A stretch of DNA of 64,000 nucleotides from positions 1 through 64,000 of the IMG/VR virus record IMGVR_UViG_3300042945_001689; one strand, written 5' to 3'. This stretch comes from a virus. The position numbers and the translations under genes are program-made. Positions 43,434 to 59,814 of this stretch are shown piece by piece (within the stretch, counting starts at the first letter, position 1; every line of letters begins with the position of its first letter). The notes under the pieces are model-generated. The model had not been told where the DNA came from and searched no databases. It saw only the letters and a program-made list of their open reading frames with translations.

Positions 43434-44165
43434 CTACTTGTATGTTCTTTGTTCCCAAATTTTATTTTTATATACTCCACCATTTGGTTTTCTGTATATT
43501 TTACTATTTGCAATATTTTTATAAACTATAACATTTGAATTAATTATATTGAATTCACTTTCCCAATTATCCCTTTTAAATGGAATCATTTGAACTATTG
43601 GAGTACCTTTTGGTAATATTCCAGAAAATTCTTTATTTATAAAAAATGGCATGCTTCCTGGCAACAAGACCTTATCATTATCTACAATTCCAGAAACTGT
43701 ATAAAAAGGCAACTCAAACCTATTTAAAGGATGTGTATACAATACGCTATAACCCTCTGGAACTTGAATTCCCCAATCTGCAAACCAAGCAAAATGATCA
43801 TCTCTATATCCATGTGGTGTAACAAAACCATCCATTTTGCTTCTTGGTGTACAAAAATCTTTATATTTTAAGTCTTCTATTTCAACACTTAATCCATTTT
43901 CACTTTGTATAAAATTAATATCACACGGTGTTAAATATGTGTATCCAGATCCCATTACGTCAAAAACTGCTGGACAGGCCTTCCAAGTTGGCATTTTGCC
44001 ACCATCTTGCCCAATATAAAAATCATTATTTTGTGGATTTTTAATAAATCTATCCATTTTTCGATACCACTCTGGAATAGTTTTAAGTATAGATGTTGGC
44101 TTAAATAGACTGTCTTGGTTTAACCATGGTCTATTATTAGTAAAAATTATTTTTTTAATGTCCAT
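43434..44165 (-). CDS. hypothetical protein distantly like DUF6065
   Basis: The 243-residue protein contains IPEWYRKM, ACPAVFDVMGSGYTYLTPCDINF, YTHPLNRFELPFYTVSG and FSGILPKGTPIVQMIPFKRDNWESE. The order (aromatic start, tP-D, IP/TP-I-xxxxPF) resembles the neighbouring DUF6065-type protein and I suspect a distant common fold. Such genes sit next to 2OG-Fe(II) oxygenases in phages, and the family's function is unknown. Overlaps the upstream gene by one base. Confidence 0.45.
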   Translation of the reverse strand: MDIKKIIFTNNRPWLNQDSLFKPTSILKTIPEWYRKMDRFIKNPQNNDFYIGQDGGKMPTWKACPAVFDVMGSGYTYLTPCDINFIQSENGLSVEIEDLKYKDFCTPRSKMDGFVTPHGYRDDHFAWFADWGIQVPEGYSVLYTHPLNRFELPFYTVSGIVDNDKVLLPGSMPFFINKEFSGILPKGTPIVQMIPFKRDNWESEFNIINSNVIVYKNIANSKIYRKPNGGVYKNKIWEQRTYK

Positions 44166-44881
44166 TATTTTTTTCTTTTATCATTTGTTTTTAATCTAAT
44201 TGTTTTTAATTCATGCTTTCCTACAGGAATATCTGATTCGTCTGTAGCATTTCTGTAAAAGTGTGTCCACTCACCAACTCTATTTTTTAATTGAGACACC
44301 TCTCCATATTTTTTATTTTTAATTTCATCTTCTTTAGAAAAAACATAATCATTAATATCTAATTCATATTGGTTTATGTTTTGTAAAGATATTGGAACAA
44401 TAGCAGCAATAGGAGTTTTTGCTGGAATTGTTATAACAACATTTGGTTTTGTAACTTTGGCTGCTAGTGGCAATGGATATCTAAAAAAAGAAGTAGAAAT
44501 AAGTGTTGTGTATAAATGAATTCCATCAATAAATAGATTTGGAACTGGCATTGTTAACAAAGTTGTATTTTCATCAGTAATAAATTTAGTAAATGTATCA
44601 AAACTTAGCGTTGCACTTCTTCTATTTTCATTGACATATTTGTTACCAGATAGGATAGTTATATGACCATCCTCTTTATCTGTATCAATTCCGTCCCAAA
44701 TAAAACTAATATCTTCATCAAAACTAATTCCCCAACCTAATGTATTTGAAATTGATAACGGAAAACAATGATATGCGTGTGCATTTGACACATTGTCCAT
44801 CCAATCTCTTTTAGCAGAAATTTGAGAGATGTTTACACCAGAATTTGGCATCATGTATGCATTAAAAACTTTATTAGTCAT
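44165..44881 (-). CDS. DUF6065-like protein, copy 2
   Basis: The 238-residue protein (ATG at 44881, within the stop region of the preceding oxygenase) has the signature KRDWMDNVSNAHAYHCFPLSISNTLGWGISF, then DISFIWDGID, and PAKTPIAAIVPISL near residue 170. It is a clear paralog of the gene at 56106-56825. DUF6065-type proteins are uncharacterised; the pairing with 2OG oxygenases in both copies here suggests that the two act together. Confidence 0.7.
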   Translation of the reverse strand: MTNKVFNAYMMPNSGVNISQISAKRDWMDNVSNAHAYHCFPLSISNTLGWGISFDEDISFIWDGIDTDKEDGHITILSGNKYVNENRRSATLSFDTFTKFITDENTTLLTMPVPNLFIDGIHLYTTLISTSFFRYPLPLAAKVTKPNVVITIPAKTPIAAIVPISLQNINQYELDINDYVFSKEDEIKNKKYGEVSQLKNRVGEWTHFYRNATDESDIPVGKHELKTIRLKTNDKRKK

Positions 44882-45554
44882 TTGTTTCTTCATGAAGGTC
44901 TGGCCTATGATATTTTGCGCTATAATCAAGCATTGTTACTAACGAATATTTTGTTCCAGATACCACTGGCATTGCTGTATGAGGATACATATAGTTTGAT
45001 GGAAAAATATATAAATCACCTGCCTGTGGTTTAACTTTTATTCCTTGTAGTCTAAAATCCAACTCTCCACCTTCGTAATCATCATTTAAATATCCTACTA
45101 AAGAAACTACACAGTTATATGTAGGACCTTGATCATGATGCTCTTGAAAATGTTGTCCTGGACCATATTTTATAAAATTAAATGATTCCCAGTATCTTAG
45201 TTCTCCAACACGAAAAAAATGAGAGTAGTCTTTAACTGCTGGAAGTTGTAAGTCATAACAGTCCTGCCAGACTTCTTGCAGCAAAACTGATTGAACGCTT
45301 TTATCATTCAGTAAATTTTCTTTTCTATATTTAAAATCAACACAGTCTCTATATTCTGGAATTTTTTGGGCATATCCAACTAAAGCCTCTCTCCAAAAAT
45401 AATTTGGATTTTTGCCTGTTAGACTATTTTCTAGTCTACTAATTATTTTCATGTCTTTTTTAAATACATTTCTATAAACTGCTATTCCATCTGCAAGTAA
45501 TTCTTTACTATCCCAAGTTGGATTTTCAACAACATTTGGTTCAAAATTAATCAT
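44874..45554 (-). CDS. 2OG-Fe(II) oxygenase, P4H type (A)
   Basis: The 226-residue enzyme has His139-x-Asp141 (EHHDQG), distal His192 (YPHTAM) and Lys202 (SGTKYS), the iron and 2-oxoglutarate ligands of a P4H-type dioxygenase. The YLNDDYEGGE block lies in between. Such enzymes hydroxylate prolines or other protein or small-molecule targets using O2, Fe(II) and 2-oxoglutarate. It is coupled to its paralog upstream and to the DUF6065 gene downstream. Substrate unknown; the nearby PPPF-repeat protein is the candidate I propose. Confidence 0.85.
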   Translation of the reverse strand: MINFEPNVVENPTWDSKELLADGIAVYRNVFKKDMKIISRLENSLTGKNPNYFWREALVGYAQKIPEYRDCVDFKYRKENLLNDKSVQSVLLQEVWQDCYDLQLPAVKDYSHFFRVGELRYWESFNFIKYGPGQHFQEHHDQGPTYNCVVSLVGYLNDDYEGGELDFRLQGIKVKPQAGDLYIFPSNYMYPHTAMPVVSGTKYSLVTMLDYSAKYHRPDLHEETND

Positions 45555-46285
45555 TGTTGCCTTTCTGTGTAAGTATACTTATGTCCCAATTCATTAATAT
45601 CTGTCATAATAACAATACAATATTTTGTTCCATTAACCATGTCCATTGACGCATGCTCATAAATATAATTAGATGGAAAAATTGCTATATCACCAAACTT
45701 TGGTTTATAAACTAAGTTGTCTAGCCTTGGAAAAAATAATTCTCCGCCTTCATAATCATCATTTAAATAAATTACAACAGAAACTGTTGTATTATATGCT
45801 GGACCGTGATCTGCATGAATTCTAAATTGCTGTCCTACACCTTCATACTTTACAAAATTAAATGCTTCATAATAGACCACATTAATTCCCCAATAACGAG
45901 CATAGTCATCAACACATAATTTTAAAGTATTGTAAATTTCTTCATACATATCAATTAATTCAGCATTTTGCTCATCTCTTGCTCCCAGAGAATAAGGATT
46001 ATACTTAAAATCAGAGCAGTTTCTAGCATACTTTATTGGTTGATCTGAGTTTGTAACTTTTGCTTCATTCCACTTATACCTTGTTTGTCCATTTAAATTA
46101 TTTTCTAATATACTTAAATATTTTTCACAATTTTCTTTTGAAATTGCATTATTATAGATATTTAAACCTAATCCTGGATTGCTTACTTTAATATTATTAA
46201 AAGTTTTGTCTGGCATTCTAAAAGATGCAGATTCTGACCTATCTTTTGTAAACCAAGGATTTTGTGATTCATTTACTTCAATCAT
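45551..46285 (-). CDS. 2OG-Fe(II) oxygenase, P4H type (B)
   Basis: The 244-residue protein has His157-Ala-Asp159 (RIHADHGPAY), distal His211 (YEHASM) and Lys221 (NGTKYC), with YLNDDYEGGELFFP in between. It is a paralog of the next gene downstream and of the ones at 54834-58112. The N-terminal 100 residues are helical and less conserved. Its start is preceded by AAAGGAGACT, which lies within a hairpin described separately. It directly follows the Hint-domain gene. Confidence 0.85.
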   Translation of the reverse strand: MIEVNESQNPWFTKDRSESASFRMPDKTFNNIKVSNPGLGLNIYNNAISKENCEKYLSILENNLNGQTRYKWNEAKVTNSDQPIKYARNCSDFKYNPYSLGARDEQNAELIDMYEEIYNTLKLCVDDYARYWGINVVYYEAFNFVKYEGVGQQFRIHADHGPAYNTTVSVVIYLNDDYEGGELFFPRLDNLVYKPKFGDIAIFPSNYIYEHASMDMVNGTKYCIVIMTDINELGHKYTYTERQQ

Positions 46286-46290
46286 TAGCG

Positions 46291-46336
46291 AGTCTCCTTT
46301 ATTTAATTATAGCATAAGAATTATTTAAAGGAGACT
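46291..46336 (-). promoter_or_regulatory. promoter inside a ribosome-binding-site hairpin
   Basis: On the minus strand AGTCTCCTTT (46336-46327) is a perfect 10-base complement of AAAGGAGACT (46300-46291), which is the Shine-Dalgarno of the oxygenase gene. The 26-base loop contains TTATGCTATAAT (46311-46306 for the -10). A transcript initiated there would start at about 46299, at the beginning of the Shine-Dalgarno, so it lacks the other arm. Only read-through RNA forms the hairpin. T4 gene e is controlled in this way. Confidence 0.65.
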
Positions 46337-46343
46337 GCGCTTT

Positions 46344-47648
46344 TTATTCAATACTTTGATCTCTTGTGTCATATACTAACATATTTTCTGTAAAGAAGTT
46401 GTCGTATGGTTCACAGTTAATCGAATATACTGTTTCTTCATAATTTAGAACGTCTAATGAATCAATATTGACAAACCCTAACTCTTCATATGAATATACC
46501 ATATATGTGTCATCAATTGAATCAATTCTTAAGAATTTTGAAACATTATCTTTTTTAGTTAAAATATAATGCGTTTCAGAATATGCATCGCCGTTAAGAA
46601 GATATACTTTATCTACTTGCTTTGATGATACTGCATAAACTGTAGTTTCTCTTAAATTGGTTTCATTTAGGATTAAGTCTTCTGCTGTCCAATTTAACCA
46701 ATCAGCGTTATGTGCTGAGGCTTGTTCTGGAAGTTCCATAGCAATTAAAACATCTCCTACAACTATGTCTTTGGCTTCTTTTCTGCCATTGGTAGTCATG
46801 ATGCCTGTATTGCTGGCAATGGAATACTCTGAGAATCCAAACCCTGGGAAAAATGGTCCGAATGGTGGTGGGAATGGTGGTGGGAATGGTGGTGGGAATG
46901 GTGGTGGGAATGGTGGTGGGAATGGTGGTGGTGCGAAACTTGGGAAGAACGGAAAGAACGGGAAGAATGGGAAAAATGGGAAGAATGGGAAGAATGGTGA
47001 AAGTGTAGTAACGCTAGAAGTTGTTGCTCCTAATGATGCTCCATTAGCATTTGTTGCAGTAACAGTGTAAGTCTGTGAAGTTCCTGCTGTATCAGCAATA
47101 GTTGATGATGTTGCTGATGATGCTAAATCTCCAGAAGAAGTTCCGTCAGAACCAGTAACGTTATGCTTAGATAAAGCCTTTCCACCAGTGGCACCAATTG
47201 TCCAACTGATTGTGTTTTGGTTAACACCAGCACTGGCGACCGCACCTTGAGGCGCTTGTGGAACTGTTGTTGCAGTTACTGAAGAAGAAGTTGTTCCGCT
47301 TGCAGTTCCTGCAGCGTTTGTTCCTTTTACTGTAAATGTGTATGAAGTATTTGATGCTAATCCCTGAAAAGTATAAGAAGGAGTGGAAGAGCCAGTATTT
47401 ACTTCGTAAGTTGAGGGGGTTGTTGTAATGATATAAGCAGTTGCTGCTGGAGATCCCGCTGGCAATGTCCAAGTAAGGCTTACTGCTCCACCTGTGCCTG
47501 CTGCAGATGCTGCTGAAGTAGTATTAGCAGTAGCAAGATAAGGACGAGATGTTCCTACATCTGTACCACTTAAGGAAGTAACATTATCTGGTTGCAAAAA
47601 GTTGTCTTGTGCTGAAGACTTGATACCTCTTTTTTTACTAACTGCCAT
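46344..47648 (-). CDS. Pro/Phe-repeat protein with Hint domain (copy 2)
   Basis: The 434-residue protein has two fibronectin-III-like domains (about 45-128 and 130-215), an FFP repeat tract (218-236), PPPF repeats (240-263) and a Hint-like domain (276-427). The Hint shows position-1 Ser276, GDVL near 298, SETH at 357-360 in place of TxxH, and NFFTENMLVYD at its end, where inteins have ...VHN. No C-terminal partner follows (7 residues). So it resembles a bacterial intein-like domain that may cleave or attach its N-terminal part, or is merely structural. It lies after a fiber gene and before P4H-type oxygenases. A promoter and AGAGGAG precede it. Confidence 0.7.
   Translation of the reverse strand: MAVSKKRGIKSSAQDNFLQPDNVTSLSGTDVGTSRPYLATANTTSAASAAGTGGAVSLTWTLPAGSPAATAYIITTTPSTYEVNTGSSTPSYTFQGLASNTSYTFTVKGTNAAGTASGTTSSSVTATTVPQAPQGAVASAGVNQNTISWTIGATGGKALSKHNVTGSDGTSSGDLASSATSSTIADTAGTSQTYTVTATNANGASLGATTSSVTTLSPFFPFFPFFPFFPFFPFFPSFAPPPFPPPFPPPFPPPFPPPFPPPFGPFFPGFGFSEYSIASNTGIMTTNGRKEAKDIVVGDVLIAMELPEQASAHNADWLNWTAEDLILNETNLRETTVYAVSSKQVDKVYLLNGDAYSETHYILTKKDNVSKFLRIDSIDDTYMVYSYEELGFVNIDSLDVLNYEETVYSINCEPYDNFFTENMLVYDTRDQSIE
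46861..47000 (-). repeat. tandem coding repeats (PPPF and FFP)
   Basis: 12-base units (five near-identical, 46861-46920 and a sixth variant) encode PPPF, and 9-base units (46939-46998) encode FFP on the minus strand. They are in-frame protein repeats, very regular at the DNA level, which favours slippage and length changes. Confidence 0.85.
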
Positions 47649-47665
47649 TTTTACTCCTCTTTTCT

Positions 47666-47671
47666 ATTATA
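47666..47671 (-). promoter_or_regulatory. extended -10 promoter of the Hint gene
   Basis: TTTGATATAAT on the minus strand, 17 bases before the ATG at 47648. The predicted transcript start lies at the AGAGGAG ribosome-binding site. Confidence 0.55.
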
Positions 47672-47679
47672 TCAAACTA

Positions 47680-49623
47680 TTATGCTTTTAAATCTCCCAT
47701 TACAACCCAAAGATTTGCTGCTCTCTTAAATAATGTTGCTGATGACCATTGTGCACGAAGTTTTAATCCAGGAGTTGCATTTACTGTTGTTGTTCCTGGT
47801 GTTACTGCTTCAATTGTCACTTCGCCAGTATTTGTTCGAAGAATATCAATTGATGTTCCGACTGGATAATTAAGTGTAGCATCTGTTGGGATTAAAACCT
47901 TAACTGCAGTTCCACCTGTATGTGAAACTTCAATTAATGAGTCTCTTTCATTTGCTGCTGAAAGGGTGTATTCTGCTGTCTTCTGAATAATTGATGTCCG
48001 TGATGGAACACCTTCTTTTGTTTGTGTACCGTCGGTAAAAATAAATCCACCAGCAGTTGTACTAATAACTGAAGTTCCGTTTACTTTAAGATCTTTTCCT
48101 GAAGCAAGGTTGATATGCTCGGAAGATGTCCAAGAATCTGTAGAATCTACCCAGTTAAAGGTTTTGTCTGTTGCGCCTTTAAGTGTAATACCTCCGCCAT
48201 CTGCAGTTGTATCAGTAGGAGTTCCTGTATCTCCAAGAACAATGTTTTTGTCTTCAATAACAAGGTTAGTTGAGTTAAGGTTTGTTGTAGTTCCATTAAT
48301 CGTTAAGTTTCCAGAAAGAGTTAAGTCTGTTCCAGAAACGGCTCCTGTAAATGTTGCTCCAGTAAGAGAAGCCTTAGCGTCTAACTGTGTTTGAATGGCT
48401 GAAGTTACCCCATCAACGTAGTTAAGTTCTGTAGTTGATGTGGTTACACCATCAAGAATGTTAAGTTCTGCTGCTGTAGAAGTAATAGAACTTCCAGCAA
48501 TCTGTAAAGTTGTGGCGTTTACTTCGCCTGCAGAGCCATAAATAACTGCTTTGCTATTTGCAATAGTTCCTGCTGATGATCCATCTACTAAGTTAAGTTC
48601 TGCTGCTGTAGAAGTAATAGAAGTGCCAGCAATTTGTAAAGTTGTAGCATTTACTTGGCCTGCTGGACCATAAATTACTGCCTTGCTATCTACAATTGTT
48701 CCAGCAATAGATCCATCTATTAAATTAACTTCTGATGCTGTTGCAGTGACATCTGTTGCACCTGCTGAAAGAACATGTGTATGACCTGTTCCTGCTTTTC
48801 CATCAATCTGTCCTTGAATTCCAGCAGAAACTCCTTCTAGGTACCCTATTTCTGTTGAAGATAGATCTCCAATTGATGTGGTACTTGGAAGAGTTACTGT
48901 TCCAGTAAATGTAGGACCTGCTAGTGCTGCTTTAGCATCTAACTGAGTTTGAATTGCTGAGGTTACACCATTAAGATAACTAATTTCAGTATTTGATACA
49001 TCTGCAACAACTGCTTGCTTATTGTCTAATTGTGTTTGAATTGCTGAAGTAACACCAGCAAGATATCCTAATTCTGTTGATGTTGCACCAGTTGCACTAA
49101 GGTTTCCTGTTGTAACAACAGTTCCGCTTACGTTTGGAAATGTAATAGTTCTATCGGCTGTAGGATCTGTTACTGTTAAAGTGGTTTCATAATCGTTTGC
49201 TGTAGTACCTTCAAAAACAATTCCTGTTGTAGCATTAATTGTTGTGCTGTTAATAGTAGTGGTTGTACCACTTACTGTTAAATCTCCTGAAACGGTAACG
49301 TTTCCACTACCATCGGACAAAACAACTGTGCCTGTTGCATCTGGAAATGTAATTGTACGGTCTGCTGTAGGATCTGTTACGGCAAGAGTTGTTTCAAATG
49401 CGTTGTCTGTAGCACCTTCAAATGTAATGCTTGAACCAAATGATGGGTTTACTGTAGAGGATTGGTCAATAAAGTAGTCAATATTTGCCCAGTGGTTAGT
49501 GCCATCACCGATCTTAAACTTATTAGTGTCTGATTCCCATCCGATTTCACCAGCATTTAGTATTGGGTTTGCTGATGTCCATTGTGCTGCAGTACCTCTG
49601 CGTTGCTGCATTCTTGTTGCCAT
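47680..49623 (-). CDS. tail fiber with Mtd-like N-terminal domain
   Basis: The 647-residue protein starts MATRMQQRRGTAAQWTSANP and GEIGWESDTNKFKIGDG, which is the N-terminal domain of major tropism determinant-like and other fiber proteins that attach to the virion. Then come several repeats of a 45-residue unit (TAAELNLVDG ... VIYGSAGEVNATTLQIAG), typical of shaft repeats. The last 100 residues (EYTLSAANERDSLIEVSH ... ATLFKRAANLWVVMGDLKA) are shared with the fiber at 59014-59814. It precedes the Hint gene in both copies. Mtd in Bordetella phage is diversified by a retroelement; none is seen here. Confidence 0.8.
   Translation of the reverse strand: MATRMQQRRGTAAQWTSANPILNAGEIGWESDTNKFKIGDGTNHWANIDYFIDQSSTVNPSFGSSITFEGATDNAFETTLAVTDPTADRTITFPDATGTVVLSDGSGNVTVSGDLTVSGTTTTINSTTINATTGIVFEGTTANDYETTLTVTDPTADRTITFPNVSGTVVTTGNLSATGATSTELGYLAGVTSAIQTQLDNKQAVVADVSNTEISYLNGVTSAIQTQLDAKAALAGPTFTGTVTLPSTTSIGDLSSTEIGYLEGVSAGIQGQIDGKAGTGHTHVLSAGATDVTATASEVNLIDGSIAGTIVDSKAVIYGPAGQVNATTLQIAGTSITSTAAELNLVDGSSAGTIANSKAVIYGSAGEVNATTLQIAGSSITSTAAELNILDGVTTSTTELNYVDGVTSAIQTQLDAKASLTGATFTGAVSGTDLTLSGNLTINGTTTNLNSTNLVIEDKNIVLGDTGTPTDTTADGGGITLKGATDKTFNWVDSTDSWTSSEHINLASGKDLKVNGTSVISTTAGGFIFTDGTQTKEGVPSRTSIIQKTAEYTLSAANERDSLIEVSHTGGTAVKVLIPTDATLNYPVGTSIDILRTNTGEVTIEAVTPGTTTVNATPGLKLRAQWSSATLFKRAANLWVVMGDLKA
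48480..48770 (-). repeat. fiber shaft repeats
   Basis: Successive copies of a segment encoding SxTSTAAELN(L/I)(V/L)DG and KAVIYGxAGEVNATTLQIAG, about 135 bases each. Related units occur in the fiber at 50143-51969. Confidence 0.75.
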
Positions 49624-49657
49624 ATTATTTTCCTCCTACAGAAAATTTCTTATTTTT

Positions 49658-49663
49658 ATTATA
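49658..49663 (-). promoter_or_regulatory. extended -10 promoter of the fiber gene
   Basis: TCTGTTATAAT on the minus strand, 35 bases before the ATG at 49623. GTAGGAGG lies in the leader. The -10 overlaps the 3' arm of a hairpin at 49663-49690. Confidence 0.55.
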
Positions 49664-49690
49664 ACAGATAATTAATTAAAGTTATCTGTT
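49663..49690 (-). terminator. hairpin at the end of the small fiber gene
   Basis: AACAGATAA (49663-49671) and TTATCTGTT (49682-49690) form a perfect 9-base stem with a 10-base loop that includes the stop codon. No T-run follows, so it could mark RNA processing or regulation rather than termination. Confidence 0.35.
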
Positions 49691-50130
49691 GCAACTCCTC
49701 CATCATAGGTATTTTCCCATGATGAAGTGCTATAGTCTCCTGCGCTTACTAGAACACCTGGTTCATTATAAGCACCTCCAGAAACAAATGTACTTACAAT
49801 AAGACCAGATCCATCAATTGCGGTATTGTGAATGTGGTCTTGTAATACTTCTGCATCTTCAAGAGTTGCAATTGCTACCCATTGAGATCCATAATAAACA
49901 TGAACTCTTTCTGTTAATGTGTCAAACCAAAGATTTCCATTTGATGGAGAATTTGGTGCTGTTCCGCTAACAGTTACTCCTGCACTACCCGCAACACTAT
50001 CAACATATGCTTTTGTTGCTGCATGTGTATTTTGAGTTGGAGTGGCAACTGTAACCGTTGATCCGAAAGTACCGCCATCGGCTACGACTAAGCCATGTTT
50101 TACCTTAAAATCTCTGTTTACAGTTGCCAT
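49672..50130 (-). CDS. small fiber/attachment protein
   Basis: The 152-residue protein starts MATVNRDFKVKHGLVVADG, almost identical in pattern to the start of the next gene upstream. A collar-like part follows (NTHAATKAYVDSVAG ... APNSPSNGNLWFDTLTERVHVYYGSQWV), typical of short fiber proteins. It may cap or bridge the longer fibers. It is 12 bases after the upstream gene and has AGGAG before its ATG. Confidence 0.65.
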   Translation of the reverse strand: MATVNRDFKVKHGLVVADGGTFGSTVTVATPTQNTHAATKAYVDSVAGSAGVTVSGTAPNSPSNGNLWFDTLTERVHVYYGSQWVAIATLEDAEVLQDHIHNTAIDGSGLIVSTFVSGGAYNEPGVLVSAGDYSTSSWENTYDGGVATDNFN

Positions 50131-50142
50131 TTAATCTCCTTT

Positions 50143-52429: not shown

Positions 52430-52435
52430 ACCTAG

Positions 52436-52441: not shown

Positions 52442-52469
52442 ACATAATTATTTTAATAGTTTTATAATT

Positions 52470-52697
52470 TTATAAAATATAGTTGCTTACACCAATCATT
52501 TGTAAGGGAATTGGTGGCGCATTATTAGCGTTAAAGGCTATAATATCTATATCAGTTATTCTTACTCTAAATGGTAAAAATTCATTTATTGTTATCCCTC
52601 TGTCAATCTTTTCTTCAATAGAAACTTTAGGAAATGTGTGTTGATCAATTGATTTTAATATTGTTGTTTGTTTATCAAATATTGCAACAGAAGCCAT
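52470..52697 (-). CDS. hypothetical structural protein, 75 aa
   Basis: The 75-residue protein has strands ASVAIFDKQ, FLPFRVRITDIDIIAF and PIPLQMIGV. It shares one base with the upstream BppU-like gene, so it belongs to this adhesin operon. Function is unknown. Confidence 0.5.
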   Translation of the reverse strand: MASVAIFDKQTTILKSIDQHTFPKVSIEEKIDRGITINEFLPFRVRITDIDIIAFNANNAPPIPLQMIGVSNYIL

Positions 52698-53098
52698 TAA
52701 CTTGTTACGTCTTCTAAAACAACCATTTGACCTCTAGCAACTGTCCAAACTCGTGTTGCATCAGATAGTTGAACATCAAAAACATCTCCAGTTTTTAATT
52801 GTGCTGACTGTACAGATGTTAATTTAACTGTAAATTCTCCAGTTTCATCTCCCGCGTCTGGGGCAGGCGTTATTGTAAATACTGTACCAGCAGAATCTTG
52901 ATCAAAATTATTTTCTATATCTGGTCTTCTAAATCTTGCAGCAATTGTCCAGTTGGCTATTACAAGTGGATTTTTAGCATCATCTGTAACATATATCCTA
53001 AATGCAACGGTATCTCCCTTTACAATTGTCCATTTTACTAATGGCGGGGCATCACCAATATCATAAACAGATTGTCCAGCACCTCTATAATTAGCCAT
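52697..53098 (-). CDS. BppU-like baseplate/adhesin protein (copy 1)
   Basis: The 133-residue protein has LVKWTIVKGDTVAFRIYVTD near residue 20 and ends WTVARGQMVVLEDVT. This is the pattern (K/RGDT..F, then G.(M/I)(V/T)V..DVT) of N-terminal domains of upper baseplate proteins (BppU) that anchor fibers. Two related genes lie at 60389-60778 and 61623-62009. It is leaderless by appearance. Confidence 0.65.
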   Translation of the reverse strand: MANYRGAGQSVYDIGDAPPLVKWTIVKGDTVAFRIYVTDDAKNPLVIANWTIAARFRRPDIENNFDQDSAGTVFTITPAPDAGDETGEFTVKLTSVQSAQLKTGDVFDVQLSDATRVWTVARGQMVVLEDVTS

Positions 53099-53104
53099 AT
53101 AAGA

Positions 53105-53110
53105 ATTATA
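53105..53110 (-). promoter_or_regulatory. extended -10 promoter, leaderless gene
   Basis: ATGTTATAAT on the minus strand, 6 bases before the ATG at 53098, no Shine-Dalgarno. Back to back with the lysozyme promoter. Confidence 0.6.
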
Positions 53111-53136
53111 ACATAATTACAAGAATATGTAAAAAG

Positions 53137-53166
53137 TTGACAAAAAACAAAACTTCATGTTATACT
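53137..53166 (+). promoter_or_regulatory. sigma70-type promoter of the lysozyme gene
   Basis: TTGACA (53137-53142), 18-base spacer and TATACT (53161-53166). It faces away from the BppU-like gene and lies 50 bases before the lysozyme start. Confidence 0.7.
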
Positions 53167-53173
53167 GGTAGGT

Positions 53174-53200
53174 AACACCATAAAAAATGGTGTTTTGTTT
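53174..53200 (+). terminator. attenuator-like hairpin in the lysozyme leader
   Basis: AACACCAT and ATGGTGTT (53174-53181, 53187-53194) form an 8-base stem with an AAAAA loop, followed by TTGTTTTC before the ribosome-binding site. It has the form of an intrinsic terminator and is placed immediately after the promoter, so it could attenuate expression. Confidence 0.5.
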
Positions 53201-53215
53201 TCTAAGGAGGAAACT

Positions 53216-53782
53216 ATGATTAAATTTATCGAAAGAAACAAAGAGGTCATTAGTATACTCGGCATACTGACTTTAGTAACGACATTGTCAAACGTTGCTA
53301 ATGCTGAAACACGAATAAGTGACAAAAATAATTTGAGTATAGAACAGGCTCAGGAGCAGGAAAACGCCTCGAAAGAGGTTTTTTTGGTTTCTAAAGAAGA
53401 AAATAATAAAATTAACAAAAAATACAAATATGGAACCCCCCTTGAAAAAGACGAACTAATTAAAATATTAAAGCAAGTAGGCTTTAAAGGATATTCACTA
53501 AAGGTTGCTTGGGCAACGGTAATGAAAGAATCTATGGGCACTCCTAACTCTTGGAATCCTAATAGACAGACTGGAGATAATTCTTATGGCCTATTTCAAA
53601 TCAATATGCTTGGAGGACTGGGCGAAGAAAGAAGAAGCAAGTTTAATCTAAAGTCTAACGAAGATCTGTTTGATCCAGTTAGAAATGCAGAAATCGCTTA
53701 TCATATGAGTAATGGTGGTGAAGATTGGTCTGCCTGGAAAGGCATTACCTGGAAAACTAAAGAGTGGATGGAAAGATATTAA
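53216..53782 (+). CDS. secreted lytic transglycosylase/lysozyme-like protein
   Basis: The 188-residue protein starts at ATG 53216, 5 bases after AAGGAGG. It has a signal peptide (MIKFIERNKE, hydrophobic VISILGILTLV, cleavage after ANA at residue 30), then a charged linker, then a transglycosylase-type domain with AWATVMKESMG (Glu105 as the likely catalytic acid) and GDNSYGLFQIN near 120-130, ending WSAWKGITWKT. It would cleave cell-wall glycan from outside the membrane. With the holin-like gene far away, export by the host Sec pathway is possible. It is one of few plus-strand genes; a fiber operon lies on either side. Confidence 0.8.
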   Translation: MIKFIERNKEVISILGILTLVTTLSNVANAETRISDKNNLSIEQAQEQENASKEVFLVSKEENNKINKKYKYGTPLEKDELIKILKQVGFKGYSLKVAWATVMKESMGTPNSWNPNRQTGDNSYGLFQINMLGGLGEERRSKFNLKSNEDLFDPVRNAEIAYHMSNGGEDWSAWKGITWKTKEWMERY

Positions 53783-54783
53783 TTTTTAATATCTTGTATT
53801 ATCTCTAAAAATCCTTCTGCCCAATGCATATGTTTATGAACTCCACTATGCCTTGCCTTTTTTGAATAATACTTTTCATCTTCTATGTCTGTTGATGTAT
53901 CAAAATTTTTTGGATACAAATGTCTTAAATGTTCGTGTTTATTACATTCGTCTAAATATACATCAAGTCCATCATCACTTTTGTACCATCTATTAGACTT
54001 TAAATAAACAAAATTATTTGATACATTTTCTTGTTGTGTTATTAAGTCATACAAAAAACCACTCCACGTTGACCATAAAAATAAAATTTTTGCTTCTTTA
54101 CAATACTGCTCTAACATTTTAATATATTGATATGAGTAAAAAAATGGTAAATCTGGAGAAAAAACATCTTCAGAATAATGTGGTTTTTTAGAATATTTTT
54201 CTGATTCTTGATAAATTACGTGAGTTGAAGACAACATACTCTCTGGATGTACTGGAAAATAAGTATTTTTTGTTATTAATGTTTCAGTATTTACTGGAAC
54301 CATAAATCTATAAAAATCTGGAAACAAACATAAAAGAGTTTTTGGATGACCATATTCTTCAAAATATTTATATATATTATTTATAATTGCAACAACAGAG
54401 TCTCCTGGTTGACTTATATTTGAATACTTTACATTTAAAGCCTTTGCTACTTGACTGCCCCATATTTCTTTTTCTGGCAATCCCAACCCAAATGTAAAAG
54501 AACAGCCACCAAAAACAAGTTCATTGTTTTCATTAAAATCTTTTCCTCTAAAACCTAAATTATTTATAATATATGAATTAGACTGGTCCAATAAAAATTC
54601 TGTTTCTGTATAATGTCCCGTCCATAGCAAACCATTTGGATACAAACCTGGTTTTCTTTTATTTGTAATAATCCAATCATTTAAAAATAAATGTTTAACA
54701 TTTTCATGATCAACTACATCATTTCCAATTAAACCTAAGTCACTTATAGTTTCTTTTATAGTTTTAGTATATGTATTTTTCAT
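53779..54783 (-). CDS. SGNH-like hydrolase
   Basis: The 334-residue protein carries GGCSFTFGLGL near residue 92-101, a GDSL-type block with Ser95, preceded by NNLGFRGKDF and followed by the helical NxGxxGDSVVAI region (ISQPGDSVV). The last block, SGVHKHMHWAEGF, holds His316, but the Asp three residues before it is Ser313. Family members remove acyl groups from glycans or lipids. The replaced Asp occurs in some active SGNH enzymes, so activity is uncertain. Its stop overlaps that of the plus-strand lysozyme gene. Confidence 0.7.
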   Translation of the reverse strand: MKNTYTKTIKETISDLGLIGNDVVDHENVKHLFLNDWIITNKRKPGLYPNGLLWTGHYTETEFLLDQSNSYIINNLGFRGKDFNENNELVFGGCSFTFGLGLPEKEIWGSQVAKALNVKYSNISQPGDSVVAIINNIYKYFEEYGHPKTLLCLFPDFYRFMVPVNTETLITKNTYFPVHPESMLSSTHVIYQESEKYSKKPHYSEDVFSPDLPFFYSYQYIKMLEQYCKEAKILFLWSTWSGFLYDLITQQENVSNNFVYLKSNRWYKSDDGLDVYLDECNKHEHLRHLYPKNFDTSTDIEDEKYYSKKARHSGVHKHMHWAEGFLEIIQDIKN

Positions 54784-54833
54784 ATTTTTTATCCTTTTTT
54801 TTAAATATTTTTTTAAATTTATACAAATAATAT

Positions 54834-55424
54834 TTAATTTTTATTAACATATTTATTTCTAATTTCATTTTCAAATATTCTGTATTTAGTTGGAATCCAA
54901 AAAGATGGTGTGGTATATCTTGTGCCTTTTGTTATCTCCCGCACACCGTGTATATACATTGTGTTTGATGGGAAAAATACCAATGTACCAGCACTAGGTT
55001 TAAAGTCTAAGTTATGATCTGGGAAGTATATCTCTCCGCCTTCGTAGTCATCGTTCAAATATATAACAGCCCCATAGTCAACTATAAATGCTTCATTTGG
55101 ATGTCCTTCTGGATCTTCTCCATCTGCATGTAGTGGTTGAAACTCTCCTGCGTCCCATCTTCTTATTCCAGCAGAATTTGTTTCAAGAGGTCTTCCAAAA
55201 TAAAGTTCTATCTCTTGCTGTACTCTATCAATTGCTTTTTTTAGTATGGCATGGGCCTCTGGCTTTTCAGAAGCAAGATTTCTTGTTACTTTGTCTGGTA
55301 TTCCAGCCATTGAATTAGAACCCCAAGAAATTGTATCGTCTATTGATGATAATACAATGTCTAAATCTTTCTTTGAAACAAAATTTTCTTTTATAACAAT
55401 ATTTTTTGTAGATCCTATTTTCAT
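54834..55424 (-). CDS. 2OG-Fe(II) oxygenase, P4H type (C)
   Basis: The 196-residue enzyme has His99-Ala-Asp101 (LHADGED), distal His159 (YIHGVR) and Arg169 (KGTRYT) as ligands for iron and 2-oxoglutarate. The YLNDDYEGGEIYFP block is very like oxygenases A, B and D, and the C-terminal TPSFWIPTKYRIF matches the plus-strand enzyme at 57528. A GGAG site is placed 8 bases upstream. It is the last oxygenase in the first cluster. Confidence 0.85.
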   Translation of the reverse strand: MKIGSTKNIVIKENFVSKKDLDIVLSSIDDTISWGSNSMAGIPDKVTRNLASEKPEAHAILKKAIDRVQQEIELYFGRPLETNSAGIRRWDAGEFQPLHADGEDPEGHPNEAFIVDYGAVIYLNDDYEGGEIYFPDHNLDFKPSAGTLVFFPSNTMYIHGVREITKGTRYTTPSFWIPTKYRIFENEIRNKYVNKN

Positions 55425-55433
55425 TTTTTCTCC

Positions 55434-55592
55434 TTAATTAGGTAACTCTGATTGCTCTGCTATTTCTTTTACTTTGTCAAAGTTTGATGCATCAACCATT
55501 GAAGATAAAACATAACATATCCATTGATAAGATGACTTTTCGCAATACCCCTTTGACTGCATAATTTTAGCAATATCTTCTATAATTTCCAT
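55434..55592 (-). CDS. small hypothetical protein, 52 aa
   Basis: This 52-residue gene begins with a TAATG overlap on the stop of oxygenase D and ends just before the ribosome-binding site of oxygenase C. The protein is helical (MEIIEDIAKIMQSKGY ... SSMVDASNFDKVKEIAEQS). Tight coupling to two oxygenases suggests a small partner, but no family is recognised. Confidence 0.55.
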   Translation of the reverse strand: MEIIEDIAKIMQSKGYCEKSSYQWICYVLSSMVDASNFDKVKEIAEQSELPN

Positions 55593-56113
55593 TACTTATA
55601 CTCCAAAAATATGTTAATTGCATATCTTGTTCCAGAATGAACCTGATGCGCTATGTGCATATATGGGTAGTTTGATGGAAATAATACCATAGAATTTTTT
55701 ACTGGCTTAACTTTAATGTCAAAGTTGCAAAATTCTATCTCTCCGCCTTCGTAGTCATCGTTTAAATATATAACGCAACTAGTAACTCTGTTAGAAACAT
55801 GCTTTGAGCCATCATCATAGTGCATTACATACTTTTCTCCAGGCTCGTATTTTAATGCCTCTATTGTAAGATATGTTAGTTCTGGAAGAAAATATAAATC
55901 ACGATATGCACTTAAAGAACTATGCAGCGCCTCATCTATAATTTTAAAAATTTCTTTTTGCAACTCTTTGTCTTGAAAGTATATGACTGAATTAGATCTA
56001 TCTTCTGTTTTTACATTTAGTGGTTTTGTCCACTCATACTTATTAATTTCTTTAATTAATAAATCTGAATTATTCAAAACATTATAATAAAACTCTATTC
56101 CGTTTTTATTCAT
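55592..56113 (-). CDS. 2OG-Fe(II) oxygenase, P4H type (D)
   Basis: At 173 residues this is the shortest of the set. His98-Tyr-Asp100 (VMHYDDG), distal His153 (YMHIAH) and Arg163 (GTRYAI) are in place, with YLNDDYEGGEIEF between. The N-terminal segment is short, which suggests a minimal catalytic domain. It overlaps the DUF6065-like gene upstream by 8 bases. Confidence 0.82.
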   Translation of the reverse strand: MNKNGIEFYYNVLNNSDLLIKEINKYEWTKPLNVKTEDRSNSVIYFQDKELQKEIFKIIDEALHSSLSAYRDLYFLPELTYLTIEALKYEPGEKYVMHYDDGSKHVSNRVTSCVIYLNDDYEGGEIEFCNFDIKVKPVKNSMVLFPSNYPYMHIAHQVHSGTRYAINIFLEYK

Positions 56114-56825
56114 TTTTTTTCCTTATGTCTTTGGTATGCAACTTTATTTTTTTTACTTCGTGTGATCCAACAGAATTGCCAAATTGATCAGTAGCGCTTC
56201 GATAAAAATCAGAAAACTTTGGAATTTTATTATTTTCTAATATTACATTTCCATAGTCTGTTACTTTTTTATGGTATTCATTAATATTATGTGGATTATT
56301 ATTTAAAGTAATTGTAGAATTTTGTAAATTTGTTAAAGATATTGGCAAAACAGAAATAATTGGAGAGTTTGCTTTAAACGTAATAACAGTGTTTGGCCTT
56401 GTAATTTTCCAAGATACTGGTATAGGTTTTTGCCAAAAACTAGAACTAATTAAGTTTGTTAACGGAACTGCGCCATCAATGTCTAAATTTGGTGGACCAA
56501 AAAACAATAAACTAGTTTCTGGATTTGTTTCAAAAAACCAACCTATATTAAAAATTAGTGTTGCAGTTCCTCTGTTAGTGTCAACAAATTCTTTACCTTT
56601 TAAAACCGTTATGTGATTTCCTTCAGAAGAGTCGTTTCCATCCCAAACAACAGAAATATCTTTGGGGAATGAAAATCCCCATCCCATTTGATTTGTTAAC
56701 GATAAAGGAAAACACCTGTATGCATGTTGATCAAATGTTTTATCCATCCAGTCTCTTTTTAAAGAAAGTTGTTCTATTCTTGCACCTAAACCTGGATTTA
56801 CTTCATATGCATTGATTTCATACAT
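56106..56825 (-). CDS. DUF6065-like protein, copy 1
   Basis: The 239-residue protein shares with copy 2 the KRDWMDKTFDQHAYRCFPLSL sequence, WDGNDSSEGNHITVLKG, PNLDIDGAVPLTNLISSSF and KANSPIISVLPISL. No enzymatic signature is known for the family. It stands between two oxygenases. The start directly follows the stop of the upstream gene. Confidence 0.7.
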   Translation of the reverse strand: MYEINAYEVNPGLGARIEQLSLKRDWMDKTFDQHAYRCFPLSLTNQMGWGFSFPKDISVVWDGNDSSEGNHITVLKGKEFVDTNRGTATLIFNIGWFFETNPETSLLFFGPPNLDIDGAVPLTNLISSSFWQKPIPVSWKITRPNTVITFKANSPIISVLPISLTNLQNSTITLNNNPHNINEYHKKVTDYGNVILENNKIPKFSDFYRSATDQFGNSVGSHEVKKIKLHTKDIRKKNE

Positions 56826-57488
56826 TTATTGTTTTTGCCTTAGTGGAGAGTTTGCTCCGTGTACCCTATCATTATAGTCAAACATTGTTACTGCAGAATA
56901 TTTTATTCCTTCTTTTACAGGCAAAGCAGCATGAGAATATAAAAAGTTTGATGGGAACAAAACAATATCTCCCTCTTCTGGAGTATAAGTATAGTTTATG
57001 TATGGGAAAAACAATTCTCCTCCAGTATAGTTGTCATTTAAATACATAACTGTAGAAACAGTACATACATAACTAAAACCATGATCTGAATGAACCTGAA
57101 AGTGTTGATCTTTTCCATATCTAACAAAATTAACTGCTTCTTGATACTCTAAGTTTAAATTAAAAAGTGAAGAATAATGTTTTACACATTCCTGTAGTCG
57201 TTCATCTATGTCAAAGTATATTTTTCTTAAATCTGACATAGTTGCTCTTGGGTTATTTACAAAATCATTTTTTCTTACTTTAAAGTCTACGCAATCTCTA
57301 TAATCTTTTCTTGTTTCATAATCACCAACTTGTGCTTCGCTCCATTTGAAAAAATTATCGCCATGTTTTTCAATAACATCTTCAAGTCGCTGAACAAGAT
57401 TTAAGTCTTTATTAAGCGCATTTTTATAAACGAATACAGCAGGCGCAGGATTTTCTATAGTGGTTGTTTCTATAAAGTTAGATAACAT
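56826..57488 (-). CDS. 2OG-Fe(II) oxygenase, P4H type (E)
   Basis: The 220-residue enzyme has His133-Ser-Asp135 (QVHSDHG), distal His186 (YSHAAL) and Lys196 (EGIKYS). It is most like oxygenases A and B in the second cluster (shared CVDFK, NFVxYG, YLNDxYxGGEL, FPSN). This matches the idea that the cassette was duplicated. GGAGATT lies before the start. Confidence 0.85.
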   Translation of the reverse strand: MLSNFIETTTIENPAPAVFVYKNALNKDLNLVQRLEDVIEKHGDNFFKWSEAQVGDYETRKDYRDCVDFKVRKNDFVNNPRATMSDLRKIYFDIDERLQECVKHYSSLFNLNLEYQEAVNFVRYGKDQHFQVHSDHGFSYVCTVSTVMYLNDNYTGGELFFPYINYTYTPEEGDIVLFPSNFLYSHAALPVKEGIKYSAVTMFDYNDRVHGANSPLRQKQ

Positions 57489-57513
57489 TTAATCTCCTTT
57501 TTGGTCAATATAT

Positions 57514-57521
57514 AGTATACT
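57514..57521. promoter_or_regulatory. palindromic, possibly bidirectional -10 element
   Basis: AGTATACT reads TATACT on both strands. On the minus strand it is 26 bases before oxygenase E and on the plus strand 6 bases before the ATG of oxygenase F, which would be leaderless. Confidence 0.5.
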
Positions 57522-57527
57522 ACATAT

Positions 57528-58112
57528 ATGGACAATATGTATAAGGTACAACCTGGCTATTTTGGGGACTCTGTTGATAATATCATTGTTTTAGAAAATT
57601 TTATAAGTCCAGATGACTTAGATAAATTTTACTTTTACTCTAAATCAATAGAAAATTTTTTATCCATACCTGATGACAACTGGGACAACAGGGTTCATAG
57701 TTCAGAGTTATTTAAAAATAGTAATAAGGCATTATTTCTTAAACTTTTAGAATATCAAAAAAAATTAAAAATAGAAATAGAAAAAAGATTTAACTTTGTT
57801 TTACAAGAAAATTCACCATCAATAGTTCTTTGGAGACCTGGAGACGATCAGCCTCCTCATGCAGACAAACAGGAGCAAGATGGTAATCCAAATTCTTATC
57901 CTGAAAATGATGTGGCATCCCTAATGTATATAAACGACAATTATGATGGTGGAGAAATATACTTTACTAACCAGGATATAACCATAAAGCCCAAGGCTGG
58001 TTCTGCAATATTTTTTCCTGGAGATATACATTATACTCATGGGGTAACAAAAGTATTAAATAACAACAGATATACATCGCCAGCATTTTGGCGTGTAAAA
58101 AACTTTAATTAA
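57528..58112 (+). CDS. 2OG-Fe(II) oxygenase, P4H type (F)
   Basis: This 194-residue oxygenase is on the plus strand. His111-Ala-Asp113 (PPHADKQ), distal His171 (YTHGVT) and Arg181 (NNRYTS) are in place, with YINDNYDGGEIYF between. It is closest to oxygenase C (both have an extended, charged insert after HAD and end SPxFW). There is no ribosome-binding site; a start at 57528 fits leaderless initiation, with a second ATG at 57537. Its stop overlaps that of the convergent Hint gene, so a transposed or inverted copy is likely. Confidence 0.82.
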   Translation: MDNMYKVQPGYFGDSVDNIIVLENFISPDDLDKFYFYSKSIENFLSIPDDNWDNRVHSSELFKNSNKALFLKLLEYQKKLKIEIEKRFNFVLQENSPSIVLWRPGDDQPPHADKQEQDGNPNSYPENDVASLMYINDNYDGGEIYFTNQDITIKPKAGSAIFFPGDIHYTHGVTKVLNNNRYTSPAFWRVKNFN

Positions 58113-59014
58113 ATATTATCCCTAACATCAAAAACCAACATATTTTCTGTAAAGAAATTATCATATGGTTCGCAATTGATTGAATAAACCGTATCTTCAT
58201 ATTCTATAATATCGAACACTTCTATTGGAACAAACTGTAGATCAGCAAAAGAGTATACAAAATATGAACTATCAATTTCTGATGTTTGTATAAATTTAAC
58301 AACATTATCTTTTTTAGTTAAAATATAATGCGTTCCCGAATATGCATCTCCGTTAATTATATAAAGTGTACCGATAGGTCTTGAGGTAATAGAAACAACC
58401 TCTGTTTCTCTTAAATTGGTTTCATCTAATAATAAATCTTCTTTACTCCAAGTTGTCCAATCAGAAACATTGTTGGTATCTAAATCCATAGCAACCAAAA
58501 CGTCTCCTACTACAATATCTTTAGCGTCTTTTCTTCCATTAATAGTTATAATTCCAGTATTGCTTGCAATGGAATATTCTGAATAGACTCCAAACCCTGG
58601 GAAAAATGGTGGTATTGGGAACGGTGGTGGGAACGGTGGTGGGGCAACGGCGAACGGTGGTGGGAACGGTGGTGGGAACGGTGGTGGGAACGGTGGTGGT
58701 GCTGGGGCTACTGGAGTAACAGAATTACTTGCTGCAGATTCTAACGATGTAGCAACACCATTTCCTAGTTTTACTTTAAATGTATAGGCTGTTCCATTTG
58801 ACAAACCACTAACAGTTATTGGAGAAGTTGAAGATGTTCCTGTTATATCTGATGGAGTTGAAGTTGCAGTGTAAGTTGTTCCAATTGGTTTGCCTAAATA
58901 GGCTGGTGCTGTAAATGAAACTGTTGCTGTTTCATTACCTTCTGTTGCAGTTCCAATTGTTGGAGTTCCTGGTTGTATTCCTCCACTACCTGAAGATATT
59001 GGTGGTAATGGCAT
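58109..59014 (-). CDS. Pro-rich protein with Hint domain (copy 1)
   Basis: The 301-residue protein begins at ATG 59014 (TAATG with the fiber stop). It has one fibronectin-III-like domain (about 15-100), PPPF repeats at 106-121 and 125-132, and a Hint-like domain from Ser148 (SIASNTGIITINGR, GDVL at about 171, SGTH at 226-229, NFFTENMLVFD near the end). It lacks the FFP tract and one fibronectin-like domain found in copy 2. As there, the terminal His-Asn of inteins is Phe-Asp and there is no partner sequence. The Hint parts of both are very similar, the N-terminal parts less so. Confidence 0.7.
   Translation of the reverse strand: MPLPPISSGSGGIQPGTPTIGTATEGNETATVSFTAPAYLGKPIGTTYTATSTPSDITGTSSTSPITVSGLSNGTAYTFKVKLGNGVATSLESAASNSVTPVAPAPPPFPPPFPPPFPPPFAVAPPPFPPPFPIPPFFPGFGVYSEYSIASNTGIITINGRKDAKDIVVGDVLVAMDLDTNNVSDWTTWSKEDLLLDETNLRETEVVSITSRPIGTLYIINGDAYSGTHYILTKKDNVVKFIQTSEIDSSYFVYSFADLQFVPIEVFDIIEYEDTVYSINCEPYDNFFTENMLVFDVRDNI
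58611..58700 (-). repeat. tandem coding repeats (PPPF)
   Basis: 12-base units (ggtggtgggaac on the plus strand) in two groups separated by ggcaacggcgaac encode PPPF on the minus strand. Confidence 0.8.
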
Positions 59015-59814
59015 TATGCACTCAGATCGCCAATTGCAATCCAAGTATTGGTTGCTCGTTTAATTAATGTACAAGATGAATACTGTGTTCTTAATTTTGC
59101 TGCATTTGAAGAAACTTGAGGTGTGCAATTTAGTGTAACTCCTGCAGTGACTACTACTGTTGTTGCTCCAGTTCCAGTTTGAATAATTGTAATTTGTGAA
59201 CCAATTGCAAATGCTTGAGTTGCATTAAGTGGAATAGTAACTGTATTTGCAGTTGATGTTAAATTCATTTCAATAATTTTATATGCATCTGACAAAACCA
59301 ATGCGTGATTTGCTGTTTTTTCTAAAATAGTAAAATCTAATGCAGATTTAGTATCTTGAACTGCTTTGACTGCAGTTGGTGTTGCTGCTTTAACTGATGA
59401 AGTCTCTGATGTTGAATCTGACAATTGAACAACTCCAGGTGTTGAAACTGATGCTGCTGTAGGTGCAGCCCATTTAAGACCAAATGTGCCCTGTGTTGAG
59501 TCTGCAGTTAAAATATGTCCATCGCTACCAACTGTTAAATTATCTAAATTATTATTTGATGTCCCTACTAAAAGATCGCCTTTAGCGTCAATGACAGTTT
59601 CTTCTACAGCATTTGTTAAAGTTGCATCAATTGCATCAATTCTTGTATCTATATCATCTAGATACTTTGAAATACCTGCGGTTGCTGTGCCTTCTGGCTC
59701 TGCTTCTTGTCCCCAATGATAATATTTAAGTGCAACCTGTATGTCGGCTGGATCAGCCATTGCTGGAATTTTTGCTAGGGGATACTTAGAACTTCCTATA
59801 TTTGTGGCTGCCAT
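59014..59814 (-). CDS. tail fiber/attachment protein
   Basis: The 266-residue protein has an N-terminal segment ADIQVALKYYHWGQEAEPEG, a coiled segment (DDIDTRIDAIDATLTN), then ETVIDAKGDLLVGTSNNNL as in other fibers, and a C-terminal 100 residues (LEKTANHALVLSDAYKIIEM ... TLIKRATNTWIAIGDLSA) shared with the fiber at 47680-49623. In both locations the Hint gene follows. Very short leader, with TATGCTATAAT just upstream. Confidence 0.7.
   Translation of the reverse strand: MAATNIGSSKYPLAKIPAMADPADIQVALKYYHWGQEAEPEGTATAGISKYLDDIDTRIDAIDATLTNAVEETVIDAKGDLLVGTSNNNLDNLTVGSDGHILTADSTQGTFGLKWAAPTAASVSTPGVVQLSDSTSETSSVKAATPTAVKAVQDTKSALDFTILEKTANHALVLSDAYKIIEMNLTSTANTVTIPLNATQAFAIGSQITIIQTGTGATTVVVTAGVTLNCTPQVSSNAAKLRTQYSSCTLIKRATNTWIAIGDLSA

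Follow-up and report, generated by a model that had tools for sequence, protein, structure and literature searches.

Two loci in the first 64 kb of the 108-kb IMG/VR virus record IMGVR_UViG_3300042945_001689 (this whole stretch of 64,000 nucleotides is termed the window) each encode a fiber, a protein with an FN3 domain and a C-terminal Hint domain, and a cassette of prolyl 4-hydroxylase (P4H)-type 2-oxoglutarate (2OG)-Fe(II) oxygenases together with a DUF6065 protein. The key element of both loci is a tandem Pro/Phe repeat between FN3 and Hint in both Hint proteins, worded PPPFPPPFPPPFPPPFAVAPPPFPPPF in protein 1 and (FFP)n(PPPF)n in protein 2, which had been missed in the initial annotation of this DNA. 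The cassette is common in freshwater viruses of bacteria and is present almost exactly where a tail-region protein bears tandem Pro/Phe repeats, and a functional linkage between Pro-Pro (PP) repeats and the cassette is held with high confidence. Taken as a whole, the likely explanation is that the cassette matures the Pro/Phe repeat by hydroxylation, with DUF6065 as the repeat-binding partner.

Phages related to the window by their NrdJ, which form a control set of relatives and not a random background, carry the same FN3-repeat-Hint gene with repeats devoid of Pro-Pro, for instance (FGA)n, (FGFTP)n and (YAGFGH)n, and have no cassette. For an unbiased test, IMG/VR was scanned by two Hint motifs only, so that neither DUF6065 nor oxygenases entered the selection, and proteins were scored where 2.5 kb or more of downstream sequence was available. 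DUF6065 was encountered within 5 kb downstream of 19 of the 23 PP-rich proteins and none of the 34 PP-poor ones (Fisher 1.4e-11), while two or more oxygenases lay downstream of 20/23 and 1/34, respectively. The reverse scan, in which viral contigs were picked solely by DNA encoding FFPPFFPPFF, gave 43 loci with 5 kb of downstream sequence, and an oxygenase followed in 37 and DUF6065 in 32 of them. Since the single-Pro (FGFTP)n repeats also go without the cassette, it is Pro-Pro, and not Pro or Phe alone, that serves as the predictor. The Hint domain was considered for the same part and was ruled out by the PP-poor Hint loci, by the empty sites described below and by the FFPPFFPPFF scan; PASTA/FN3-FFPP proteins with no Hint domain do carry the cassette.

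Relatives of DUF6065 were found in at least 569 IMG/VR contigs. The order Hint-oxygenase-oxygenase-DUF6065 recurs in dozens of other viral contigs and is thus more than chance; in the contigs that were read it extends as P/F-repeat protein, oxygenase, oxygenase, DUF6065, optionally phrog_7084, and further oxygenases. A search of other phages for joint occurrence of DUF6065, oxygenases and Hint proteins had been proposed in the initial annotation, and its outcome was massive. An open reading frame (ORF) with a P/F repeat is present at 129 of 166 DUF6065 loci, and 28 of the 37 loci with no called repeat have less than 4.5 kb of upstream sequence. Five of the nine longer ones were read by eye, four of which (L111, L114, L127 and L067) hold an uncalled FFPP repeat, and L021 holds none. 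The repeats are worded (FFPP)n, (YFPP)n, (PPPF)n, (FFSPPG)n or (PPHF)n, and their carriers differ, having FN3 or PASTA-like domains before the repeat and Hint or nothing after it. Some cassettes (L009-L011, L045-L066) have uninterrupted series of seven to nine oxygenases, all different, which is well beyond the number in the window. Among isolated phages, two different queries detected DUF6065 in 0 of 50,697 phage records. A scan of GTDB contigs for DUF6065 returned a single locus, L177 (DUCD01000215.1), on a contig binned in a Verrucomicrobiales metagenome-assembled genome; the contig (title coverage 0.075) encodes a fiber, an FFPP-repeat protein, P4Hs, DUF6065 and proteins named by eye as TauD-like and glutathione-peroxidase-like, and is probably a phage contig.

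Both cassettes are absent from a close relative of the window, L490 (record G006), the NrdJ of which is 97% identical in amino acids (aa) to that of the window and in which both fiber-Hint loci bear FGFTP repeats. At locus 1 the stop of the Hint gene and the end of the SLT gene overlap, so that the equivalent of window positions 58109 to ~53807 is missing, and at locus 2 the phrog_7084 gene begins 12 bp after the Hint gene, oxyB, oxyE and duf2 being missing (gene names as in Table 1). L490 is therefore a double empty site for both cassettes. Its two Hint genes (L490:1-19046) have near-identical FGFTP repeats and Hint domains along with differing N-termini and fibers, a pattern suggestive of gene conversion from one fiber locus to the other. 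As phrog_7084 persists in empty-site phages, it was ruled out as a diagnostic member of the cassette and is regarded as a neighbour only.

It can be presumed from these observations that the tail-region protein would be composed of FN3 domains, a tandem Pro/Phe low-complexity segment and usually a C-terminal Hint domain, followed by its maturation enzymes. Several P4H-type oxygenases, with one dedicated family per position, would hydroxylate prolines of (FFP/PPPF/FFPP/FFxPPx)n, and the product would be a hydroxyproline-rich polyproline-II rod with a chemistry akin to collagen or plant extensin, possibly taking part in adsorption. DUF6065, in which the dUTPase Asp motif is lost, would bind the polyproline chain as a chaperone or adaptor, and Hint would be a module of its own for processing at the C-terminal border of the repeat.

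All six oxygenases of the window match 2OG-FeII_Oxy_3 (PF13640; 39-62.5 bits, cut-off 27), and HxD...H...[KR]Y, which comprises the iron ligands and the basic residue for 2-oxoglutarate, is kept in every one of them. The oxygenase profile found its best PDB matches in the prolyl 4-hydroxylases 3itq, 5hv0 and 5iax (E ~5e-17), followed by a prolyl 3-hydroxylase and an algal P4H. On the basis of these closest solved relatives and of the tracking of Pro-Pro, proline hydroxylation is the probable chemistry. When the oxygenases of 28 cassettes were compared, they grouped by their slot in the cassette (21 changes versus 62.9 with shuffled labels), and the presence of an own family per slot suggests that the enzymes share out the work among different prolines or ring positions. 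The abundance of Phe beside Pro in the repeats, together with the several oxygenase families per cassette that suggest several sites or positions, would also suit oxygenases that modify the repeat on Phe, or a hydroxyproline that only anchors sugars added by other enzymes. This appears improbable, as the Phe-rich, PP-poor repeats (FGA)n and (FGFTP)n occur without a cassette and Pro-Pro, not Phe, is what predicts it. No glycosyltransferase was noticed in the window cassettes, where no systematic search for one was made.

The closest known counterparts to the hydroxylation proposed here are the P4Hs that act on Pro-rich proteins, such as collagen and the extensins of algae and plants, and that of Bacillus anthracis. 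The 2OG-Fe(II) fold, the HxD...H...K/R residues and the best PDB matches are held in common with them, and the candidate phage substrate is likewise a tandem Pro-rich structural repeat. The difference lies in the enzymes being phage-encoded, with two to nine position-specific paralogues per cassette, and in a repeat rich in aromatics (FFPP/PPPF) instead of one of Gly-X-Y or Ser-Pro4. To our knowledge, no DUF6065 partner accompanies the P4H systems of collagen, extensin or Bacillus anthracis.

Alternatively, the cassette could be an island that serves auxiliary metabolism or DNA repair and only hitch-hikes on one repeat allele through recombination in blocks. Block exchange is indeed seen in L298, whose DNA is 92.9% identical to window positions 48445-47259, loses identity inside the FN3-Hint gene and resumes it at 91.3% from position 43433, so that the exchange takes in repeat, Hint, cassette and phrog_7084 as a single block. 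Cyanophage 2OG-Fe(II) genes, moreover, have been treated as auxiliary metabolic genes, for which DNA repair or a part in 2-oxoglutarate/nitrogen metabolism was suggested (PMC3037559). The window oxygenases belong to the same PHROG 61 as these cyanophage enzymes, a PHROG reported to be structurally similar to the human prolyl hydroxylase EGLN3 (PMC12774648); in contrast to the window enzymes, the cyanophage oxygenases are not tied to a repeat-bearing tail protein. Where PP-rich proteins lack an adjacent cassette, DUF6065 is found elsewhere in 7/8 records longer than 20 kb and in 0/9 shorter records, and the seven have 6-8 oxygenases each. Among 16 PP-poor records of 22-111 kb there was no true DUF6065, and nine had no PF13640 oxygenase at all; a weak DUF6065 match in the PP-poor record G015 proved to be a phrog_7084-type protein. 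The association thus requires no adjacency, as would be expected of action in trans, and speaks against hitch-hiking. Further evidence in the same direction is that the linkage holds at two loci at once (contigs with two scoreable Hint loci are rich/rich in five cases, poor/poor in seven and mixed in none), across unrelated N-terminal domains, with or without Hint, and outside phages, and that the nearest solved relatives of the oxygenases are prolyl hydroxylases. Passive travel of the island is accordingly considered quite unlikely.

The two DUF6065 proteins match PF19541 with 124.8 bits (duf1) and 91.3 bits (duf2) against a cut-off of 26.6. AlphaFold2 models of DUF6065 and phrog_7084 reached a predicted local distance difference test (pLDDT) of 92.4 and 92.6, and the best Foldseek matches of both were of the dUTPase/dCTP deaminase fold. 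By TM-score the resemblance of both to dUTPases is weak; for DUF6065 the best Foldseek E was 2e-4 and the TM-score <=0.75 by target and 0.30-0.41 by query, with ~6-13% identity to proteins of that fold. The two families are homologous (hhalign 96%), and phrog_7084 retains G-I-(I/V)-D-x-D-K and GTPxxQxIPF, which we take to be reminiscent of dUTPase motifs. The dUTPase Asp motif (GxIDxxY) is missing from DUF6065, which reads S/T-S-F at the place where phrog_7084 has GIIDNDK. In the window the phrog_7084 gene adjoins nrdJ, and halovirus HSTV-2 has it close to thymidylate synthase; its product gives the impression of a dUTPase-like enzyme that has escaped annotation, and members of the family (as in the window and L375) are widespread in haloarchaeal tailed viruses. 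DUF6065 might by the same token be a nucleotide enzyme, dUTPase- or dCTP-deaminase-like, of the NrdJ/phrog_7084 block and unrelated to the tail protein, for which its fold, its homology to phrog_7084 and the neighbours of the latter could be cited. There is little likelihood of this, given the S/T-S-F in place of I-(I/V)-D-x-D-K in the alignments and given that DUF6065 tracks the repeat while phrog_7084 stays behind in empty-site phages.

The models and alignments instead suggest a non-nucleotide role for DUF6065, as a protein of predicted dUTPase-like fold that would be catalytically dead. Whether that role is the binding of polyproline we regard as evenly balanced; the conserved aromatics W26, Y36 and W61 would fit such binding. 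A search of the PDB with the DUF6065 sequence gave nothing convincing, the family entry records no function, and the literature searched had no paper on DUF6065. Outside phages, DUF6065 of Sinorhizobium medicae starts 9 bp after an autotransporter gene that encodes >20 consecutive Pro, a broken copy being present in S. meliloti pSymA, and in Ochrobactrum it follows an ORF that ends in collagen-like GPTGPT repeats. These neighbours suggest that what DUF6065 goes with is the polyproline or collagen-like chain as such, and not the oxygenases. Many S. meliloti plasmids (pSymA/pSymB hits; L495, L497) have a DUF6065 and autotransporter pair that appears broken or split, the pair being intact in S. 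medicae. A chromosomal DUF6065 is present in Caulobacter as well.

The Hint domains of the two window proteins scored 22.9 and 17.1 bits with Intein_splicing, below the cut-off of 35.8. In a set of 100 Hint relatives, position 1 is Cys in 48 and Ser in 44, the block-B His is found in 59, and the C-terminal Asn position has Asn in 44 and Asp in 48; the window copies have Ser at position 1, a TxxH-like block B (SETH/SGTH) and Asp in the C-terminal Asn position. A splicing intein was ruled out by the sub-cut-off scores, the Asp in place of Asn and the lack of a C-extein, and the Cys/Ser1 with block-B His places the window copies with the Hedgehog- or bacterial intein-like Hint domains. To judge by these residues, an N-terminal acyl shift may take place, with cleavage or transfer where the repeat ends. 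A comparison of the Hint profile with the PDB gave no match. The same Hint types occur in PP-rich and PP-poor proteins, which makes Hint and cassette independent modules. Virion-protein Hints of Yersinia phage fHe-Yen9-02, phage NCTB and Erwinia phage SNUABM_2 are alike in having a C-terminal Hint, a Pro/Gly-rich stretch and adjoining tail fibers, but in these isolates (L499, L500 and L501; jumbo phages with distant homologues) collagen-like Gly-X-Y precedes the Hint and there is no DUF6065.

The initial annotation had described a fiber/Hint/oxygenase/DUF6065 unit that occurs twice. All the ORFs it named are present at the positions it gave, its DUF6065, oxygenase, FN3-Hint and fiber families are supported by Pfam and PHROG matches, and the paralogies it reported are borne out by pairwise identity, viz. 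42% over 109 aa between the C-termini of fibers 1 and 2, 64% over 158 aa between the Hint domains, 46% over 234 aa between duf1 and duf2, and 42% (oxyA-oxyE), 43.5% (oxyB-oxyE) and 39% (oxyA-oxyB) among the oxygenases. A recent duplication of the unit as one block did not withstand the family trees, as sisterhood was rejected by the approximately unbiased (AU) test for duf1 and duf2 (p 3e-4) as well as for the two Hint domains (p 4e-5), and oxyA and oxyE fall in different pre-DUF6065 clades. The DUF6065 tree puts duf1 in a group with L021/L027/L028 and duf2 in one with L009/L010/L011/L016. The Hint and oxygenase trees give the same picture, genes of cassette 1 siding with phages of the L021/L022/L028 type and those of cassette 2 with phages of the L009/L011/L016 type; a common origin of both cassette lineages further back in time is allowed (AU p 0.685). 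Because the fiber-Hint locus is present twice in relatives with neither cassette, it is the fiber-Hint locus that was duplicated, and a cassette may be present or absent at either copy. The annotation had also proposed that DUF6065 works with the oxygenases on the fiber/Hint product. Co-occurrence supports DUF6065 and the oxygenases as a single functional unit linked with the fiber/Hint gene, but fiber/Hint products as a class are not its target. Action on that product as such (Hint domain or fiber C-terminus) by a recently duplicated unit is very improbable even though fiber-Hint directly precedes the cassette at the two window loci and in numerous contigs, in view of the PP-less fiber-Hint loci and empty sites without it, the Hint-less repeat proteins with it, and the rejected sisterhood.

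Several observations weigh against maturation of the repeat by hydroxylation with DUF6065 as partner. The virion location of the repeat protein rests on gene position and on the annotation of distant homologues. The contigs are fragmentary, and one PP-rich record of 27 kb (G312) has no DUF6065. Some PP-poor phages retain 1-5 oxygenases, so that not every phage P4H serves a Pro/Phe repeat. The PP state switches only a few times on supported branches of the Hint tree; the pairs compared across these switches never disagree in direction, yet the phylogeny-corrected sign test is underpowered. In the bacterial neighbourhoods examined there was no P4H near DUF6065, which therefore need not depend on hydroxylation, and in Niveispirillum and one Verrucomicrobiota genome DUF6065 had no polyproline or collagen-like neighbour.

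The features of the two loci are compiled in Table 1. The cassettes are unequal in content, oxyC, oxyD and oxyP having no counterpart in cassette 2, and oxyP, a fourth oxygenase of cassette 1, and the SGNH-like gene were both additional to the initial annotation. The latter was named by eye from its GCSFTFG motif and had no match in Pfam. Cassette 2 ends in the phrog_7084 gene. The ATG start of Hint protein 1 agrees with the L490 homologue, which has the same N-terminus MPLPPISSGSGGI. The fn3 model (PF00041) matched protein 2 with 34.4 bits and protein 1 with 23.4 bits, just below the cut-off of 25. Just upstream of cassette 1, a collagen-like phage protein (60794-61540, minus strand; Gly-X-Y repeats, Pfam Collagen 36.1 bits) is possibly another prolyl hydroxylase substrate.

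Table 1. Positions of the two fiber-Hint loci and their cassettes in the window.
Feature	Position	Strand	Remarks
fiber 1	59014..59814	-	Phage_fiber_2; C-terminal domain in common with fiber 2
FN3-(PPPF)n-Hint protein 1	58109..59014	-	predicted substrate of cassette 1
Pro/Phe repeat, protein 1	58580..58714	-	residues 101-145, PVAPAPPPFPPPFPPPFPPPFAVAPPPFPPPFPIPPFFPGFGVYS; 24 Pro, 9 Phe
oxyP, P4H-type 2OG-Fe(II) oxygenase	57528..58112	+	opposite strand; not in empty site
oxyA, P4H-type oxygenase	56826..57488	-	class directly before DUF6065
duf1, DUF6065	56106..56825	-	predicted dUTPase-like (beta-clip) fold, pLDDT 92.4
oxyC, P4H-type oxygenase	55592..56113	-	cassette-1 type only
oxyD, P4H-type oxygenase	54834..55424	-	cassette-1 type only
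SGNH-like protein	53779..54783	-	final gene of the block missing from L490
fiber 2	47680..49623	-	Mtd_N domain
FN3-(FFP)n(PPPF)n-Hint protein 2	46344..47648	-	predicted substrate of cassette 2
Pro/Phe repeat, protein 2	46830..47000	-	residues 217-273; 27 Pro, 23 Phe
oxyB, P4H-type oxygenase	45551..46285	-	second before DUF6065
oxyE, P4H-type oxygenase	44874..45554	-	first before DUF6065
duf2, DUF6065	44165..44881	-	Pfam match, paralogue of duf1
phrog_7084 protein	43434..44165	-	dUTPase-like fold, keeps GIVDND motif

Beyond the window, the FN3-X-Hint genes of L295-L374 and L377-L488 display widely differing aromatic repeats, including (FGA)n, (FGFTP)n, (YGGFSH)n and (FVPYS)n, of FG-nucleoporin- or silk-like character, and the repeat type turns over rapidly in these genes.

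Overall, the chemistry put forward here would be of a known kind, while the phage system, the aromatic polyproline substrate and the DUF6065 partner are undescribed as far as our searches reach; the literature searched had no paper that brings together phage, prolyl 4-hydroxylase and Hint domain. There is perhaps an even chance that this is an undescribed phage system in which dedicated sets of prolyl hydroxylases and a polyproline-binding, catalytically dead dUTPase-fold DUF6065 turn an aromatic polyproline stretch of a tail protein into a hydroxyproline-rich rod, the C-terminus of which is then processed by Hint, and in which DUF6065 is a general polyproline/collagen partner that also serves bacterial surface proteins. 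Of the genes of aquatic phages classed as "auxiliary metabolic", those for 2OG-Fe(II) oxygenases rank with the commonest; roles in DNA repair or metabolism have been guessed for them, and a large class of them would gain a specific protein target, the polyproline-aromatic repeat of a tail-region protein. DUF6065 gains its first functional context in its polyproline or collagen-like neighbours in phages and bacteria, and a family of tail proteins emerges that swaps its low-complexity repeats, (FGA)n, (FGFTP)n, (YGGFSH)n and (FFPP)n, along with the enzymes that modify them. If the proposed maturation is true, hydroxyproline-type protein maturation would join phage virion assembly.

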